This document shows, piece after piece, positions 15,774 to 24,101 of a DNA stretch of 64,000 nucleotides. A program made the translations under genes and the position numbers. The DNA lies in contig NZ_CP083666.1 in assembly GCF_020097835.1 (NCBI RefSeq), forward strand, positions 1,798,001 to 1,862,000, in the 5' to 3' direction. The notes beneath the pieces are model-generated. The model was not told where the DNA came from. It ran no database searches and was given only the letters and a program-made list of their open reading frames with translations. Source of the stretch: Haloprofundus halobius. Its GTDB lineage: Archaea > Halobacteriota > Halobacteria > Halobacteriales > Haloferacaceae. The first letter of the stretch is position 1. Every line of letters begins with the position of its first letter.

Positions 15774-15971
15774 TCAGTCAGGTGGCTTCCGTTGCGGTTT
15801 TCGGTCTCTTCGTCGGGCATCGACTAACCGCTGGAGCCACGCGACCTGTTCGTCGCTGATTCCCTCTTCGACTCTGGTTTGTGGGGGGGTTCCGAGCTTG
15901 AGTTCTTCACTCGGTCGTCGAGAGTGCCTTTTCGTGCGACTTGGTTCTTGATGAGGTGTGGCCGCAGTCAT
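15774..15971 (-). CDS. Possible small protein, unknown
   Basis: 65 codons, basic N-terminal half, then VEEGISDEQVAWLQRLVDARRRD, a plausible amphipathic helix. An AT-rich TTTATTTT (minus strand, ~15996-16003) lies ~26 bp upstream of the start, compatible with a leaderless promoter. The overall composition (many Arg, few acidic residues) is unusual for a haloarchaeal protein, so it may be non-coding. Confidence 0.28.
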   Translation of the reverse strand: MTAATPHQEPSRTKRHSRRPSEELKLGTPPQTRVEEGISDEQVAWLQRLVDARRRDRKPQRKPPD

Positions 15972-16690
15972 CCATGCCTTTATACTCTAGTCATAGAAAA
16001 TAAACCTTGTCCAGGCGAGAACAGATGTAACCGGTTCTCGTCGTCGAACCGGTCGAGTAGACGTTTCAGTCTGGTTTGGCAGGCCTCCAGCGAACCCGGC
16101 ACCAATCGAAGAGAGATATTCTCCCGTCGCTTCCGACCGCCACCGTCCTCTACGTCGTCTTCTGGCTCAACGTCGTCGTGTTCGTCCCGCAGATAGGCCA
16201 CTTCCGTCGGCTCCGGAGTACGTCCTCCAGCCGCCGTTCGTCGCCTTGCTCGTCGGTTCGCTGGCGGTTCTCGGTCGTTCGATGGTACGAGACATCCACA
16301 GAGAGCGGTAGGCAACCGCGCTCACGGACGTGACACTCGGACGCGACTCGGTACGACGGCTGTCACTCCAGAGGGTTCTCTCCCTGTCGTGGTTCTCGAC
16401 GTTGCGACGACGGTAACCGGAGTTTTCGGCGTTGCACCGAGGGCGACAGGAGTCGTGACGACACCTTCTGGATCTGACGGTCGCCGCGACAGAGTCGGCC
16501 GACCGCACGTCGTCAGTCAAAGATGTTACACAGATTACAATACTTATCGTTGCTGAAAGGTGCGAACAACTATTTGCCGAGTCGTGGCCCGTTATCGTGG
16601 GTGGCGGCGCAGGCGACTCACCTCTGCCGGAAGGGGGATTATCCGTCAAGTGAACACCGTTTGGCGTCGCTAACCCTGCCTCTGACAACC

Positions 16691-16717
16691 AACGAGGGTT
16701 CGTCTCTCACCCTCGTT
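16691..16717. repeat. Perfect 9-bp inverted repeat
   Basis: AACGAGGGT (16691-16699) and ACCCTCGTT (16709-16717) with a 9-nt spacer. Could be a terminator-like or RNA hairpin; no adjacent gene explains it. Confidence 0.55.
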
Positions 16718-16889
16718 CGTCCGTCATTCTCTGGATGTATAACCACTCACCCTAATCGCTTCGCCTCTCGCCCTCGTTCGCGACCGTCGGTACGCGACGA
16801 GAGGTTCCAGGAGAACGCCGGTCGGAGCGGCCCGTGATTCGTTTCCGAATCGACTCGAAAGCGCACGCTCGAAGTTTCTCGGACGCAAT

Positions 16890-16987
16890 CGGGGCCGGGA
16901 GGGGCCCCGTAGGTTGACACACCAGGGCAATCTGAGGGGGAGACAGATTGCTCGTCGAGCACCGCCTGAGTCCGTGCAAGAACCTAC
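16890..16987. ncRNA. Candidate structured RNA (strand unknown)
   Basis: The sequence folds into nested helices: hairpin CGGGGCC/GGCCCCG (16890-16896 with 16903-16909). Next, a closing stem GTAGGTT/AACCTAC (16909-16915 with 16981-16987; its first G is shared with the previous helix) encloses two hairpins, GCAATCTG/CAGATTGC (16927-16934 with 16944-16951) and GCAC/GTGC (16959-16962 with 16974-16977). This is a three-way-junction layout. No coding potential is evident and no family is recognised. Confidence 0.35.
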
Positions 16988-17254
16988 CGGGTGGCGGGTA
17001 CTCAGTAGAGACTCACGGGCAGTACCGGTATTGTAATGTCGACTGTACGCGTCTGTAGACGGCGTTAAATTCGTTGCCAGACGTGGACTCACGTTCGATG
17101 ATCGTCGCGTCAGAGTTCTGTATTCGACGCTCTTCAGCCAGAATTCACGAAGTATGGTCGGTCTACCGTCGTCCGGATCCGGTTTCGACGCGGAGTTCCG
17201 TGGTTCGAACCGCGCCGTGACGTGCTCTCGGCCGGCGGGTCGCTCCGTCGTGCG

Positions 17255-17584
17255 CTACTCGTCGGGAAACTCTTCTCGAAGTTGTTCGAGCAGTTCGAGC
17301 ACCGGCGTCACCGTCTCGAACCGCGGCCCTCGCCGCACGAGTTCCCGCTCGTGGTCCCACTCGACGAGGTCGACCCCGTCGAGTTGCGGCAGGTGGACGT
17401 GGTACAACTGCTCGACGACCGTCTCCGGTTCCGCCAGTTCGACCGCAAGCGTCTCCAGCGGAATCCATCCGCTGTCGCCGACGCTCGCGCGATTCAAGAA
17501 GACGAGTGTAGACCGGCGAGTTGGATGGCTCAACGCGGCGAAGAGACGGTCCACCGCCGGGTGCTCTCTGCCCGAGTCACTCAT
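17255..17584 (-). CDS. DUF7344-type winged-helix regulator
   Basis: 109 aa from the ATG at 17584 (MSDSGREHPAVDRLFAALSH). The open frame continues upstream, but that segment is Arg-rich and not conserved in character. AALSHPTRRSTLVFLNR and EQLYHVHLPQLDGVDLVEWD are the two hallmarks of this haloarchaeal HTH family. Target unknown. It is convergent with nothing close and precedes dph5 divergently. Confidence 0.78.
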   Translation of the reverse strand: MSDSGREHPAVDRLFAALSHPTRRSTLVFLNRASVGDSGWIPLETLAVELAEPETVVEQLYHVHLPQLDGVDLVEWDHERELVRRGPRFETVTPVLELLEQLREEFPDE

Positions 17585-17915
17585 GCGCGCCACTCTCCGA
17601 ACGACGTTGGCGGGGCCGAAGCGTGCAACATGCCGTGCGAACCGACGACGCACGGAACAATCAACACGCACCTACACAGATGCAGTACTTATCTGTGCAA
17701 ATGTATCTCACTTCAACGTGACTAACTGTCACCTGAACCGCCCACACAGATTCGAGGGGGAAGCCACGACTTCGATCGTCGGTCACGGACTCCGCGCCGC
17801 TCACCCGTCTTCCGGCCTCGATTCACGGGGTTCAGTTCGCCCGACGTCCCGCGGTCGTCGGCGACGCCTCGATGCAGACGGTTTATGCGCGCACACCGTC
17901 GACTCCGACCACAGG

Positions 17916-18722
17916 ATGCTCACGTTCATCGGACTCGGTCTCTACGACGAGCGGTCGATAACCGTCGAGGGGCGGGAGGCGCTCCGCAGCGCCGACCGCG
18001 CGTTCGCGGAGTTCTACACCAGTAAACTCATCGGGACGACCGTTGAGGAACTCGCCGACCACCACGGCGTCGACGTCGAGGTTCGCGACCGGGCGCGCGT
18101 CGAGCAGGATGCCGACGAAATTCTCGACGCCGCCGAAGAGGGGGACGCGGCGTTTCTCACCGCCGGAGACACGATGATCTCGACGACACACGTCGACCTC
18201 CGCCTGCGAGCGCACGAGCGCGGCATCGACACGCGTATCGTCCACGGCGTCACCGCGCAGTCGGCGGCGAGCGGTCTCACGGGTCTGCAGAACTACAGAT
18301 TCGGAAAAGCGACGACGCTGCCGTTTCCGTACGCCCACGGTGCCGACGGCACCCCGAAGAGCGTCGTCGACACCGTCGAGGACAACCGCGAGCGGGGCCT
18401 CCACACGCTCGTCTACCTCGACATCAAGGTCGGCTACGAGCGCGCGGGCGTCGATTCCGACGACGAGTACATGACCGCCGACTTCGCCGCGGGCGAGTTC
18501 GCCCGCGACTGGGACGGCGACGCGCTGGGGGTCGTCGTCGCCCGCGCGGGGAGTCCAGACCCCATCGTCGCCGCCGACCGCCTCTCGGCGCTGGCCGACC
18601 GGGAGTTCGGCGACCCGCTGCACATGCTCGTCGTTCCCGCGTCGCTGCACGATCTGGAGGCCGAGTCGCTCTCGGCGTTCGGTGACGCGCCGTCCGAAGT
18701 CGTCGAAGAGAACACGTACTGA
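17916..18722 (+). CDS. dph5: Diphthine synthase
   Basis: 268 aa SAM-dependent tetrapyrrole-methylase-fold enzyme. It methylates the modified histidine of translation factor aEF2 on the way to diphthamide. Motifs are MLTFIGLGLYDERSITVEG, AAFLTAGDTMISTTHVDLR and IVHGVTAQSAASGLTGLQNYRFGKATTLP, matching archaeal DphB/Dph5. The ATG at 17916 is chosen because the upstream frame is unconserved and a TATA-like GTTTATG lies ~30 bp upstream. Confidence 0.95.
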   Translation: MLTFIGLGLYDERSITVEGREALRSADRAFAEFYTSKLIGTTVEELADHHGVDVEVRDRARVEQDADEILDAAEEGDAAFLTAGDTMISTTHVDLRLRAHERGIDTRIVHGVTAQSAASGLTGLQNYRFGKATTLPFPYAHGADGTPKSVVDTVEDNRERGLHTLVYLDIKVGYERAGVDSDDEYMTADFAAGEFARDWDGDALGVVVARAGSPDPIVAADRLSALADREFGDPLHMLVVPASLHDLEAESLSAFGDAPSEVVEENTY

Positions 18723-18776: not shown

Positions 18777-19742
18777 TTATCGTTCCGCGCGTTCGCCGCC
18801 GTCGGGTCGCATCTGGTTTTCGTACTGCGACACGTCGAGCGCGCCGTGGAGGTCGTACTCCTCGCGGGTCAGCATGAACAGCACGTCCTCGATGACGGTG
18901 AGCAGTTCGGGGAGTTCGCGCACGACGAGGTAGGTGATGCCGACGAGCGCGACGACCGCGAGCAGTTGGCTGACGACGCGGTCCGAGAGGAAGAACGACA
19001 CCATGTAGGGGTCCGAGGAGCCGAACAGCAACAGCACCTCGTCGACGAACCACTGCATGTACTGCTTGCCGAAGGCGATGCCGATGAACGTCGTCCGCAG
19101 CAGGTTCAGCGCGTAGATGATGGGGATGGCGACGGCGAGCGCGCGGAGTTTCCGCCGCAGCGGCGCGCGGACGGCGGCGATGAGCCCCGCGAAGATGGCC
19201 ATACTCCCGATGCCGGTGCAGGCGAGGACGACCGAGAACTGCAGGTTGTGGCCGTCGTCGTGGACGAACCGGAACGTGTTGTCGTACCCCTCCGGGCCGA
19301 CGATGGGCGTCGGGTGGTACCCGAGTACGTTGATGAGGTAGCCCGTCTGGGCGGCGACGAGTTCGACGAGCACCTCTCTGGGCGAGGGAACCGTCGTCGC
19401 GCCGACGGTTATCGCGGGTATCGTCTCGAACGGGAGGTAGACGACGCCCATCACGGCGACGGCGCGCGAGAGCACGAAGAGCGTGTCGCGACCCCGAAGC
19501 AGCAACAGCCCCGCGTAGAGGCTGAGCGGGACGGCCGCGAGGCTGAGGAGCCCCTCGATGTAGGACTTGTGCTCGAAGGCGAAGTGCGGGAACAGGTTGA
19601 GCCAGAAGAGGGCGAAGGCGACCCACGCGCTCACCATCACGTAGCGGGCGACGCGCCGATTGGCGCGCTCGAACAGCGCACCGCCGACGAACAGCGCGAT
19701 GGCGACCCACGCGAGCGGGTCGGAGGGGACGACGCCGGGCAT
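18777..19742 (-). CDS. artA: Archaeosortase A
   Basis: 321 aa, about eight transmembrane helices. A cysteine transpeptidase-like membrane enzyme that cleaves PGF-CTERM proteins and links them to lipid. Catalytic residues align with the H. volcanii triad: Cys175 (LACTGIGSMAIFAG), Arg216 (ALNLLRTTFIGIAFG) and Arg255 (FLSDRVVS). A TATA-like GTATATCC lies ~28 bp before the ATG, so the transcript is probably leaderless. The next gene in the same direction upstream is a PGF-CTERM surface glycoprotein, its likely main substrate; btuF is another. Confidence 0.95.
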   Translation of the reverse strand: MPGVVPSDPLAWVAIALFVGGALFERANRRVARYVMVSAWVAFALFWLNLFPHFAFEHKSYIEGLLSLAAVPLSLYAGLLLLRGRDTLFVLSRAVAVMGVVYLPFETIPAITVGATTVPSPREVLVELVAAQTGYLINVLGYHPTPIVGPEGYDNTFRFVHDDGHNLQFSVVLACTGIGSMAIFAGLIAAVRAPLRRKLRALAVAIPIIYALNLLRTTFIGIAFGKQYMQWFVDEVLLLFGSSDPYMVSFFLSDRVVSQLLAVVALVGITYLVVRELPELLTVIEDVLFMLTREEYDLHGALDVSQYENQMRPDGGERAER

Positions 19743-19947
19743 ACCGGTATCCTTCGCGTGAAGTGGTATATCCCTTGTCGTCTGTGGTCGGGTGCGCGCA
19801 CGAGCGGGTGCAGTAACTGACTGTCACGCGCGCCCACCGACGTGGCTGTCGCTCGTCGGCGTGGGTTCGATAAAGGAAGTAAGGGCCGGGAACGGGTCCC
19901 GGTGGTTCTGGGAGTTAGCGCTCGAAAGCAGACTCGGGAGAGTCTAC

Positions 19948-22122
19948 TTAGTTGTCGCGGCGGACCGCGAGGAGCGCAGCAGCCACGAGTGCGATGAGAG
20001 CCACGATGACACCGAAGCCGGGGGTGTCAGTTTCCGTGGTTTCCTCGGTGGTTTCCTCGGACGGGGACTCCTCGGTTTCCTCGGTGGTCTCCTCGGTAGT
20101 CTCCTCGGTGGTCTCCTCAGTCGTCGTGGTGTTGTTCTCGCCAGTCGAGGTGGTCGTGGTGTTGTTCTCTCCACCCTCGCCACCTTCGCCTTCGACGATC
20201 ACAGCGCTGTACTCAGTGTCGCCCTCGAAGCCAGGCCCGTCCTGGTCGCTGAGCGACAGCGTGAAGTTCGTACCCTGTTCGAGGTCGCCGAAGTCGAACG
20301 TCGCGTTGAACGTACCGTTCTCGTCGACCGTCGCGGTGTCGGTCTCGACGAACGTGTTCGAGGCGCCGGACTCACTCTGCGCGCGGACGCGGATCTCGGA
20401 GCCGGGCGCGATCGAGGACTCGCCCTCGACCGAGCTGTTGTCGGAGCCTGCGACTTCGACGACGTCGTCGTCGTTCACGTTGTCGAAGGAGGCTTCGCGG
20501 TCAACGACAGAGAACGTCGAGGAGACGGACTCCTCGGGGAGTTCACTCTCGCTATCTTCGCCGACATCGAGCGTGACGTTGAACTCGTCACCGCTCTCGA
20601 AGCCATCACGGTCGACAGCGCCGTCGTTGGACGTGTCGATAACGAGGAACAGGTTGTTGTTCTCGTCGTCAACGACGTACTGAACGGCGTCCGAACTGAC
20701 CGTCTTGGGGTCTTGGTTCGCCGACGGGTTCTCCTGCTCAACCGTTAGGTCGAGATCGTCGCCGTTGAAGACATCTCCATCATCATCATCTTCCTGTGCT
20801 GCAATGTAGCCAGCAAGGCCCGAGGCTTCGACCTGCACGATTGCAGTATCGTCCTGGGCGATATCGCTATCCTGCGTGATAATGCCGTCCTCGATAGCTT
20901 CGACGACATCGTCCTCGTTGGCGTCCTCACTAAGTTCGCCACCGGGCGCGGTCCACGTCTGCGCACCGTCGATGGATGCGTCCGAGACGGCGAGTGTACT
21001 CACGTCTTCAGCACTATCGAAGTCTTCCGGACCGACTTCGATGTCATAGTTCGCGGTGTCAAGGATAGAGCTGACACCGATGTTGTCGTTGTCCTCCGAG
21101 TCCGAGGTGTCGACATCGACGCTCGTCTCATCGCCACCAGCGGAGACACCGTAGTCGTTGCCGCTGTCCGGGTTGTACGTGTTAACAGTAACGTTAGCGA
21201 CACCGTCCTCGTTTTCGTCAGTAACGAGTGCGGTGACTCTGTAGCCGTCGTCCTCGCTACCGATGACGATTTCGGCCTCGTCAGTATTCTCCATCTCGAC
21301 CGGGAACGTTACCGTGTCACCGGCCTCGACGTCGACGTTGTTCGGGAGGTTGTAGGTCGACTCCTCTTCCTCGGTGACTTCAATGGACGCGTCGGCCTCA
21401 GCCGTCGTGTCCGTCACGGAGAAGGTGAAGTTGTACTCGCCAGTGTCGATGTCTTCGAAGTCAGCGTCGTACGCCGTACCTTCGTCGACATCTTCGAGAA
21501 CAACTGCGCCGTCCTCGATCTCAGCGTCTTCGTCAACATCCTCAAAGATGTCCTGGAGCTCATCGTTATCGAGCTCATCAGATTCGACGGTCAGATCGAA
21601 GTTCGAGCGAACGTTCGAGTCGAACTCGATGGAGGACTCGCCGTCCTGCGTGATGGAGTCGTCATCGAACTCGGCACCGATGTCCTGCTCGGTGATGTCC
21701 CACTCGGCAGCGCTAATCGCATCTGCGTCGGTACCGGACGAGTCCTGAACCACACCGTCAACGACTTCGAGCGGTGTGTTACGGGAATCGGCCTCGACAA
21801 TCACGTACGAGCCCGACTCAAGGGAGTCCGACTCGAAGATGGCCGAACCTTCCTCGTCCGTGGTGAAGGTCAGTTCGGTCGAACCGAGTTCATCACCGTC
21901 AACCGAACGGACTTGATATTCAATATCCTCATCACTCGTATCGCTGTCGACGAACAGCTCCTGGCCCTGATAGAACAGGGAACCGGAGTTGACGCTGTCG
22001 TCGGCGTTGTCAGCGTTAGCCGCAGCAGCCGTACCTGCAAACGCGACGGTGCCCGCGAAAACGGAGAACACCATCAGCGCAGCGAGGAAAACTGCACGGA
22101 ACTTCTGTGTTGTTTGTGTCAT
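19948..22122 (-). CDS. S-layer-type surface glycoprotein, PGF-CTERM
   Basis: About 724 aa. I start at MTQTTQKFRAVFLAAL, since this matches haloarchaeal S-layer signal peptides; a Met four codons earlier is possible. The signal ends near GTAAAA, followed by SGSLFYQGQELFV, the N-terminal BGTF/S-layer motif. The body is Asp/Glu-rich with several N-glycosylation sequons (NVT, NFT, NTT). A Thr/Glu tandem stretch (TTEE repeats) forms an O-glycosylation-like spacer before TDTPGFGV, a hydrophobic helix and RRDN. It is probably the major cell-wall protein, anchored by ArtA encoded just downstream. G+C is lower than in its neighbours. Confidence 0.88.
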   Translation of the reverse strand: MTQTTQKFRAVFLAALMVFSVFAGTVAFAGTAAAANADNADDSVNSGSLFYQGQELFVDSDTSDEDIEYQVRSVDGDELGSTELTFTTDEEGSAIFESDSLESGSYVIVEADSRNTPLEVVDGVVQDSSGTDADAISAAEWDITEQDIGAEFDDDSITQDGESSIEFDSNVRSNFDLTVESDELDNDELQDIFEDVDEDAEIEDGAVVLEDVDEGTAYDADFEDIDTGEYNFTFSVTDTTAEADASIEVTEEEESTYNLPNNVDVEAGDTVTFPVEMENTDEAEIVIGSEDDGYRVTALVTDENEDGVANVTVNTYNPDSGNDYGVSAGGDETSVDVDTSDSEDNDNIGVSSILDTANYDIEVGPEDFDSAEDVSTLAVSDASIDGAQTWTAPGGELSEDANEDDVVEAIEDGIITQDSDIAQDDTAIVQVEASGLAGYIAAQEDDDDGDVFNGDDLDLTVEQENPSANQDPKTVSSDAVQYVVDDENNNLFLVIDTSNDGAVDRDGFESGDEFNVTLDVGEDSESELPEESVSSTFSVVDREASFDNVNDDDVVEVAGSDNSSVEGESSIAPGSEIRVRAQSESGASNTFVETDTATVDENGTFNATFDFGDLEQGTNFTLSLSDQDGPGFEGDTEYSAVIVEGEGGEGGENNTTTTSTGENNTTTTEETTEETTEETTEETEESPSEETTEETTETDTPGFGVIVALIALVAAALLAVRRDN

Positions 22123-22237
22123 GGTTTTGTGCATTGGTCGGCGACAGCCACTTTCGCCCGTGCCTGGATACCGAAACGCCCGACGCGGTGCCGGACTTGG
22201 CGAGGGATACTCGTCGATGCCACCATGGGTAGGGGTA

Positions 22238-22820: not shown

Positions 22821-24101
22821 TTACCGACCCACGAAGGCAACTTGCGGGTTCGTATGCTCCTCGTTGGGACGGTGAGAGCGTGGTGACTCCGACCATGAAT
22901 GGTCGTCCCACTTGAGGCATACAGGCCGTGCCATCGGCCGTGATACCGTTGTCTGCCGTCTCAAGAACGTCTCTGACGCTGTGAGGTCTGCATGCCCCTC
23001 GAATCCACACGGACACGTCAGCGTGTCTTTGTGGCGCGTCGTATCCTCTGTCGAACCACAGTTGGGGCACTCCTGACTCGTCCACGCCTCAGACCGAACC
23101 TCGACCGAAATGCCGTATTCCTCGGTGGTACATGCCAGTCTGTTCACGAACGCTCTGAACGCCCAGAAGTTGTGCGTCTTCGCGTTCGTCTCCACCGACC
23201 AGTGCGTATCGAGTACGTCCGTCAACGCCCCGACGTACACTGTCGAAACGCCTTCGTCGTACAGGCGTTCGATAAGGTCACGGGTGAGCGCATCTTGGGC
23301 GTGGTCACGTCGCTTGGTACGTCGGTCGTACAGGCGTCGGATACGGTGACTACTATATCGACCTTCCTCCAACAGCGATTGAAGTCGGGCGATTTCTCGT
23401 GTCATCTCACGGAATCGCTCGAACAGGTTGCATCCTTCATACAGGTATTGCTTACCGGTCGTGGTTGTGCAGGCGACGAGATTGTTCGCACCAATATCCA
23501 GAGCGGATTCTTCCGAACCCAGTGGTTGTGCCAGTCTAGAAGCGTCGATAGTGACTGGCTGAAAGGCCCTGAACGTCTGTGCTTGCTCGTCGTAGAACAA
23601 CTCTAACCGACCCTGCTTGTCGTACTCCTTCCAGTTTGGTTTGCCTCGAACTTCGAGCCGGAGACGTTCGCGATGTCCAAGCCCGTACTCGTCTTTCAGG
23701 TTTTGGCCGACGAGAATTTCGAGGCGAGAGTATTCGCCCCACTCGACAGAGTATGACGTGTTTCGGATATACGTGCGGAGATCACGCCCATCTTCTGAGT
23801 TACCCCAGTATCCGGGTTTGCCGTTGGCTTCGCCCTTCTTCTTGAGGCTGAAGAACGACTTCCATGCTTCGCGGTTCTTGCGTTCGATTTGCTGAACTGT
23901 CGAAGCACCGAGAACACCACCGTAGCGTCCGCGATACTCGCTTATATCCCACACGTCTCCGTCTGGGTCCGCGTAGTTTTCACGGCGTTCGTAGTTGATT
24001 TCGTTCCATAGAGAAGCAGAAGCGTCCAACAGGCGTCGAAGCAACTCCCCATCCTCGTCGGACTGCGGAATCACGTCGAACGTGTTGGCTCGCTTCATCA
24101 A
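22821..24101 (-). CDS. tnpB: TnpB, IS1341-type RNA-guided nuclease family
   Basis: 426 aa. RuvC-I Asp is present ([12 protein letters not shown]), and RuvC-III Asp is in [13 protein letters not shown]. The zinc ribbon is CPNCG...CPCG. At the expected RuvC-II Glu position ([11 protein letters not shown]) there is Gly-Ala and no acidic residue. I recall relatives with GDL here, so the enzyme may be weakened or dead unless another residue substitutes. The C-terminal tail ([16 protein letters not shown]...) is typical of the haloarchaeal subfamily. Start could be either of two adjacent Mets. Confidence 0.86.

Follow-up and report, generated by a model that had tools for sequence, protein, structure and literature searches.

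The H/ACA and C/D box guide RNAs of archaea are small structured RNAs, carrying either the C/D boxes RUGAUGA and CUGA together with a guide, or a hairpin with a pocket followed by a 3' ACA. Here we describe a conserved, structured element on the minus strand of a 64,000 nucleotide stretch of the Haloprofundus halobius genome (hereafter the window), at positions 17003 to 16892, which on balance we read as the gene for an independent non-coding small RNA (sRNA) of ~110–155 nt. It is one of two probably related loci, called locus A (in the window) and locus B. Two sRNAs of Haloferax volcanii are the described systems with which it can best be compared. As set out in the part of its report drawn on here, sRNA132 is an intergenic RNA of 138 nt found in one genus only, with the same neighbours in 11 of 12 species; its ends are mapped and its basal promoter elements and regulon are described, two stems are joined by a pyrimidine-rich single-stranded linker, and the next gene has its own promoter (PMC6560208). 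The other, s479, is, in the portion of its report used here, a haloarchaeal sRNA with mRNA targets (PMC8155600).

The proposed locus-A RNA is like sRNA132 in its size, its restriction to one genus, its synteny, its stems with a linker and a next gene with a TATA-like box of its own. It too lies between protein genes and is likely non-coding, and its sequence and structure are conserved (locus A in three, locus B in all five of the Haloprofundus genomes compared). The likeness is one of description, and the present RNA has three hairpins whereas sRNA132 has two stems. A second related locus is probable here, while none is described for sRNA132 in the part of PMC6560208 consulted. With s479 the present RNA shares its standing as a haloarchaeal sRNA, here a candidate whose mRNA targets are only proposed. 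Like the guide RNAs it is small and structured, and locus B lies beside an intron-containing tRNA; by eye no RUGAUGA/CUGA pair and no ACA after a hairpin was seen in the alignments, and Rfam gave no match. Among the papers listed in literature searches on haloarchaeal small RNAs and on Haloprofundus we found no report of this RNA, and none of the Haloprofundus titles listed concerned small RNAs.

Locus A is a conserved island in three of five Haloprofundus genomes

Five genomes of the genus were compared, that of H. halobius and four others (G001, G002, G003 and G004). Locus A is carried by H. halobius, G003 and G004 at one syntenic place; a DNA search found it once in the H. halobius genome (E 0.001) and strongly in two of the four others (E 4e-17 and 1e-13). 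G001 and G002 retain the flanking blocks without the element. Among the three copies, global identity is 0.69–0.76 over the element and 0.42–0.46 over the 5' flank, against a shuffled-flank baseline with a mean of 0.31 and a maximum of 0.43 (n = 20). Over the 3' flank it is 0.33 between H. halobius and G003, 0.44 between H. halobius and G004, and 0.67 between G003 and G004. The BLAST similarity of the H. halobius copy to both relatives stops at 17003, the base of hairpin 1, and that between G003 and G004 stops within a few bases of the matching position. The 3' border is defined by the H. halobius genome only, because G003 and G004 stay similar past the 3' end.

The DNA of the neighbouring gene dph5 is 0.85–0.91 identical among the three carriers. 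By this gene G003 is the deepest branch of the genus, at 0.85–0.865 identity to the other genomes, which are 0.90–0.92 identical to one another. Since G003 carries locus A, the locus is probably ancestral, and lost or replaced in G001 and G002.

The shared structure consists of three hairpins on the minus strand

The minus-strand consensus of the three copies comprises hairpin 1 (GAG...CUC), hairpin 2 (GACG...GUC) and a GC hairpin (Table 1). RNAalifold gives this strand −28.5 (covariation term −0.1) and the plus strand −24.2 (+2.2); column-shuffled alignments reach the minus-strand energy in 19 of 1000 cases and the plus-strand energy in 351 of 1000. For hairpin 1 by itself z is −3.1, with 4 of 1000 column shuffles as good. 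The GC hairpin stands in all three copies with differing arms, and G004 has lost part of hairpin 2, whose stem there becomes continuous with several G-U pairs. Across hairpins 1 and 2 the pair cells comprise 59 Watson-Crick, 15 G-U, no A-C and two other combinations, a count favoured by taking the pairs from the RNA-strand fold. Where bases have changed, pairing is largely retained through G-U, as a minus-strand RNA would show, whereas in opposite-strand folds this hairpin-1 helix is interrupted by C-A (two hairpin-1 pairs in the plus fold of locus A). An RNA read from the plus strand was rejected because its consensus fold is weaker and its covariation term worse. Both partners have changed in 1 of 31 pairs on the minus strand and in 1 of 28 on the plus strand.

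Upstream of the element, CATTAC, CATTAC and CATTTC form the best common 6-mer at the same offset (±1) in the three genomes, with 1 of 2000 shuffles as good; this sequence may mark a weak promoter.

An earlier note on this DNA had proposed a candidate new haloarchaeal non-coding RNA or regulatory element at 16890–16987, drawn on the plus strand as a three-way junction whose closing stem, GTAGGTT/AACCTAC, holds two hairpins and abuts a third. The pairings are all present in the sequence, but the junction is neither rare nor kept in relatives. Its two inner hairpins, as delimited in Table 1, overlap at bases 16950–16951. Plus-strand RNA of the region has ordinary stability (z −0.76; 45 of 200 shuffles fold as well or better), and its best fold lacks the closing stem, which costs ~3.5 kcal/mol to force (−45.7 versus −49.2). 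In the three locus-A copies that stem forms 7 of 7 (H. halobius), 6 of 7 and 3 of 7 pairs. Nor is the arrangement beyond chance, since sites with a 7-bp closing stem enclosing one 7-bp hairpin and another of 4 bp number 49 in the window (nested ones included, a tRNA among them), against an average of 19.75 over 20 first-order Markov sequences. With a closing stem that is unconserved, an arrangement that is common by chance and a fold that is unremarkable and excludes it, the drawn junction is therefore not a structure under selection, and we rejected it. What the copies share instead is the series of three consecutive minus-strand hairpins, which runs 16 nt past the right end of the junction, to 17003. 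The proposal of a new RNA has fared better than its structure: conservation, a shared fold, what is probably a second locus and the absence of any match in Rfam all speak for it.

A second locus, probably related

To search by structure as well as sequence we used three covariance models: R1, of the three locus-A copies; R2, of three locus-B copies; and R3, a joint model of eight copies (three of locus A and five of locus B, from the five genomes). Their E-values are rough, as calibration was shortened, and the large searches used strict filters. R1 revealed locus B in H. halobius (32.1 bits, E 0.007) and at the orthologous site in G002 (24.3 bits, E 0.22) and G004 (22.4 bits, E 0.50). In 170 genomes of the family at E 0.5, it returned 11 places in nine genomes; of the eight that were not locus A, three were the orthologous locus B and five were outsiders beyond the genus, so that every place within the genus was locus A or locus B. 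In 392 genomes of the order at E 0.1, R1 returned the three locus-A copies and a single outsider, inside a long open frame. Run on eight loci picked because they contain copies, it also recovered the five copies of locus B. The scores of the window's own locus A, 117.2 bits with R1 and 79.2 bits with R3, are high by construction.

In the reverse direction, R2 finds locus B throughout the genus: three of the five genomes supplied the copies from which it was built, and in the other two the copies are new (127.4 and 115.3 bits). Its best match on the window is 16855–17005, minus strand (18.2 bits, E 0.019), the next reaching 13.3 bits. In a 113-kb set made up of the window and other fetched regions, the next entries after its own members are the G003 copy of locus A (26.2 bits, E 3e-4) and then that of the window.

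Locus B is itself a conserved, structured, non-genic stretch, and none of 300 shuffles reaches its fold value on either strand. Its RNA strand folds at −65.0 (covariation term −0.48) and the other strand at −51.0 (+1.84), with both-sided changes in 4 of 55 and 4 of 36 pairs, respectively; the pair cells of hairpins 1 and 2 are 117 Watson-Crick, 12 G-U, two A-C and three other. Unlike locus B, the outsiders of R1 and R3 that we opened lie in or antisense to long frames. In H. halobius, G002 and G004 locus B adjoins the intron-containing tRNA (Rfam tRNA, 43.7 bits; anticodon CAT, read by eye from the sequence), which ARAGORN did not report and which was not listed in an Rfam rerun at gathering threshold on 401 bases. 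Locus B and its upstream region are kept in all five genomes (TTAAC.GGT.GTTCG, GTATG and ACTATGG in the alignment), and a fourth hairpin with a T-run lies 3' of it in at least H. halobius, G002 and G004. With this upstream region and T-run, locus B looks a better first target for expression work than locus A.

A MAFFT alignment of the eight copies, unfitted to any structure, shows GTGTGTC and TnCGGG to be invariant in all eight, besides GAGT, CTCG and others. In all eight the three hairpins follow one another in the same order, and GUGUGUC and UnCGGG occupy the same position. GUGUGUC is unpaired in R3, though in the locus-A consensus its final bases take part in the basal pairs of hairpin 2. 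The stems around it differ. That of hairpin 2 is GCAAUCUG/CAGAUUGC in the H. halobius locus A and GGCGACC/GGUCGCC in its locus B, hairpin 1 has partly different arms in the five locus-B copies, and hairpin 3 is CCGGG/CCCGG in locus B. The compensatory changes that the earlier note had named as a check are thin among the three locus-A copies; with the five locus-B copies added they are stronger, 9 of 27 pairs having changed on both sides with pairing kept in an alignment fitted to R1, in which the locus-B rows of G003 and G001 look misplaced in hairpin 1.

Common descent of the two loci is likely, though not proven. Model scores alone do not establish a relation, because chance matches reach similar values; the case is built on those scores together with the shared linker, the same hairpin order and the fact that locus B is itself conserved and structured.

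The family appears restricted to Haloprofundus

Rfam 15 matched only a tRNA in the whole window at gathering score. On locus A itself (H. halobius and G003) the best sub-threshold match was MDR-NUDIX (21.1 bits, E 0.041; cut-off 54.9), and in the locus-B regions of three genomes nothing matched the element up to E 1. A DNA search of 60 relatives gave nothing outside the genus at E 0.001, and among the 170 family genomes the window element drew three outsiders of 19–25 nt and the G003 element ten of 21–43 nt. The best of R1's five outsiders in the family, in G022, overlaps long frames. R2 listed six outsider places in five of the 392 order genomes (E 0.004–0.04), where R1 gives at most 16.2 bits, and R3 added to its eight copies, found by construction in the family genomes, one outsider in G185, on the strand opposite a long sensor-kinase-like frame. 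Run on 26 dph5 loci from other genera, R1 reached 19.4 bits at best (E 0.053). A pattern scan of genome contigs matched H. marisrubri and also two bacterial contigs, from Rhodococcus and Ferrovibrio, which we take as chance. In viral contigs the locus-A pattern had no match and a linker pattern had eight, with R3 scores of at most 17.6 bits. These searches point to no credible copy outside Haloprofundus, and the family would thus be genus-restricted.

Genomic neighbourhood

Locus A sits between a HalOD1/small-frame block and dph5, although HalOD1 itself was not found in G003. In the window a DUF7344 gene separates the locus-A site from dph5, and DNA similarity places it likewise in G001, G002 and G004; in G003 no DUF7344 frame fits between locus A and dph5. 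The small frame of 65 amino acids (aa) downstream has no Pfam match at E 1, and the block of DNA in which it lies is conserved across the five genomes, including those without locus A. Between this block and locus A, ~860 bp of the H. halobius genome (16030–16890) are missing at this place in G003 and G004; the insert has only short matches (28–50 nt) in 11 other genomes (99 searched, H. halobius included). Farther off, the minus-strand frame at 22821–24101 resembles a TnpB-type protein and has a CPNCG...CPCG zinc-finger pattern, and at 18777–22134 (minus) a frame similar to an exosortase/archaeosortase adjoins a large one that looks like a surface glycoprotein and has a PGF-type C-terminus.

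Table 1. Features of loci A and B, of the earlier drawn junction and of the neighbourhood (window positions unless a contig is named)
Feature	Position	Strand	Remarks
Locus A, RNA family	16892..17003	minus	predicted RNA 5' end near 17003, 3' end near 16892 or slightly past
Hairpin 1, locus A	16957..17003	minus	GAGUACC-c-GCC / GGC-GGUGCUC, inner GUAG[GUUC]UUGC; base is the conservation edge at 17003
Hairpin 2, locus A	16916..16956	minus	GACG...GUC base, core GCAAUCUG/CAGAUUGC, C-rich loop UCUCCCCCU
GUGUGUC	16916..16922	minus	invariant in eight copies; candidate target- or protein-contact site
Hairpin 3, GC-rich	16890..16909	minus	CGGGGCC/GGCCCCG
CATTAC, weak promoter candidate	17033..17038	minus	29 bases ahead of hairpin 1
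Locus B, H. halobius copy	G000:C1:544111-544266	minus	found by R1; orthologous site in relatives
Drawn junction, outer closing stem	16909-16915 / 16981-16987	plus (as drawn)	GTAGGTT / AACCTAC
Drawn junction, inner hairpin	16927-16934 / 16944-16951	plus (as drawn)	GCAATCTG / CAGATTGC
Drawn junction, second inner hairpin	16950-16960	plus (as drawn)	GCTCGTCGAGC
GC hairpin abutting the drawn junction	16890-16896 / 16903-16909	plus (as drawn)	
Small 65-aa reading frame	15774..15971	minus	downstream of locus A, outside the RNA; TTTATTTT box ahead of frame
DUF7344 gene	17255..17596	minus	upstream of locus A on same strand
dph5-like gene, tetrapyrrole-methylase domain	17916..18722	plus	syntenic anchor, transcribed away from locus A

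Interpretation and alternative explanations

That loci A and B are conserved, share a structure and, in the case of locus A, prefer one strand is observed. As the best account of these observations we favour, with some confidence, a new genus-restricted family of haloarchaeal sRNAs with two loci, probably acting in trans; an independent small RNA is also the simplest reading. From these comparisons we infer that the locus-A RNA is transcribed, from its own promoter, and acts on targets in trans. The RNA would fold into its three consecutive hairpins with the invariant GUGUGUC ahead of the third, and the hairpins would keep it stable. Most likely it would serve as a trans-acting regulatory sRNA. 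That one stretch stays fixed while the stems next to it change suggests a contact site, and GUGUGUC, perhaps together with the C-rich loop of locus-A hairpin 2, may thus contact target mRNAs or a protein. More tentatively, loci A and B could be duplicated regulatory RNAs specific to the genus, with stems rewritten around the fixed linker GUGUGUC...CGGG, possibly sharing a target or partner and differing in the timing of expression.

Several observations weigh against an sRNA family of this kind. Locus A is absent from two of the five genomes, it shows neither a canonical TATA box nor a T-run terminator, and its hairpin 2 alone is not significant (z −1.06; 135 of 1000 shuffles). Eight copies from one genus give covariation little power. 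At locus B it is the opposite strand that departs further from its shuffles (z −6.1 versus −5.0), and the choice of strand there therefore rests on energy, the covariation term and 12 G-U against two A-C cells. The link between the loci also has competitors in score. R1 scores the locus B of G001 at only 12.4 bits, and outsiders in G022 and G382 at 32.4 bits (slightly above locus B) and 29.2 bits, respectively. With R2, the G004 copy of locus A reaches only 9.9 bits (E 1.3), and in whole genomes of the genus locus A goes unlisted at E 0.05. The same model scores a chance-like place (L087) in the 113-kb set at 17.4 bits, close to the 18.2 bits of the window's locus A, and outsiders in whole genomes at 24–28.7 bits, more than it gives locus A.

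Some of these points would fit a resemblance by chance, with A and B two unrelated conserved RNAs: chance places attain the same model scores, and R2 passes over locus A genome-wide. We give this little credence, as the hairpin order and the positions of GUGUGUC and UnCGGG are common to all eight copies, and R1 at E 0.5 finds nothing within the genus besides A and B. It is likewise improbable that locus A is a decaying relic, a degenerating duplicate of locus B that is recognizable but no longer functional. Its presence in only three of five genomes, its weaker hairpin 2 (especially in G004) and its want of a clear 3' T-run would suit a relic, but it is conserved above its 5' flank across the deepest split of the genus, and its stem changes mostly preserve pairing. 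The strand-symmetry of inverted repeats, and the more extreme opposite strand of locus B, would accord with an element acting as DNA, a protein-binding or recombination site whose repeats bind proteins with no RNA involved. Such an element is unlikely, given that in each locus one strand has more G-U than A-C cells (the pairs coming from that strand's fold, which favours the count), that opposite-strand folds break as C-A in the hairpin-1 helix, and that hairpin 2 differs in sequence between the loci while GTGTGTC stays.

Most doubtful is a cis-acting leader, in which locus A would be an attenuator or riboswitch within a long 5' untranslated region of the 65-aa frame. Locus A does lie upstream of that frame on the same strand, and in G003 and G004 the two are only ~150 nt apart (a distance taken from the alignment). 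Leader function is nonetheless unlikely because the frame has its own TATA-like box (TTTATTTT, just ahead of its start), because in the window the two stand ~860 bp apart with other DNA between them, and because the small-frame block persists in G001 and G002, both without locus A; a locus B elsewhere in the genome also argues against it.

Two further candidates were set aside. A mobile-element end or miniature inverted-repeat transposable element finds no second DNA-level copy in the H. halobius genome at E 0.001 and no match between 16020–17260 and plasmid and phage records, and the models give two diverged loci. A protein-coding remnant seems unlikely from the five single-base gaps between the H. 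halobius and G003 copies, although frame 2 of the RNA strand is free of stops in all three locus-A copies (107–114 nt), which counts against an RNA gene. That frame is broken in two of the five locus-B copies and no frame is open across all eight. Locus A is likely non-coding, and the earlier note's view that the surrounding frames look non-coding is likely right.

Implications

If the sRNA reading is true, Haloprofundus has a small RNA family of the haloarchaea whose structure is supported by comparison between genomes and which has a second, related locus in one and the same genome; if the two arose by duplication, the pair would be a small case of sRNA duplication and divergence in archaea. 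The case would also show that a chance-looking cluster of hairpins can overlie a genuine RNA gene on the opposite strand. Within the family, a fixed linker beside freely changing stems would make the linker the first target for mutation.
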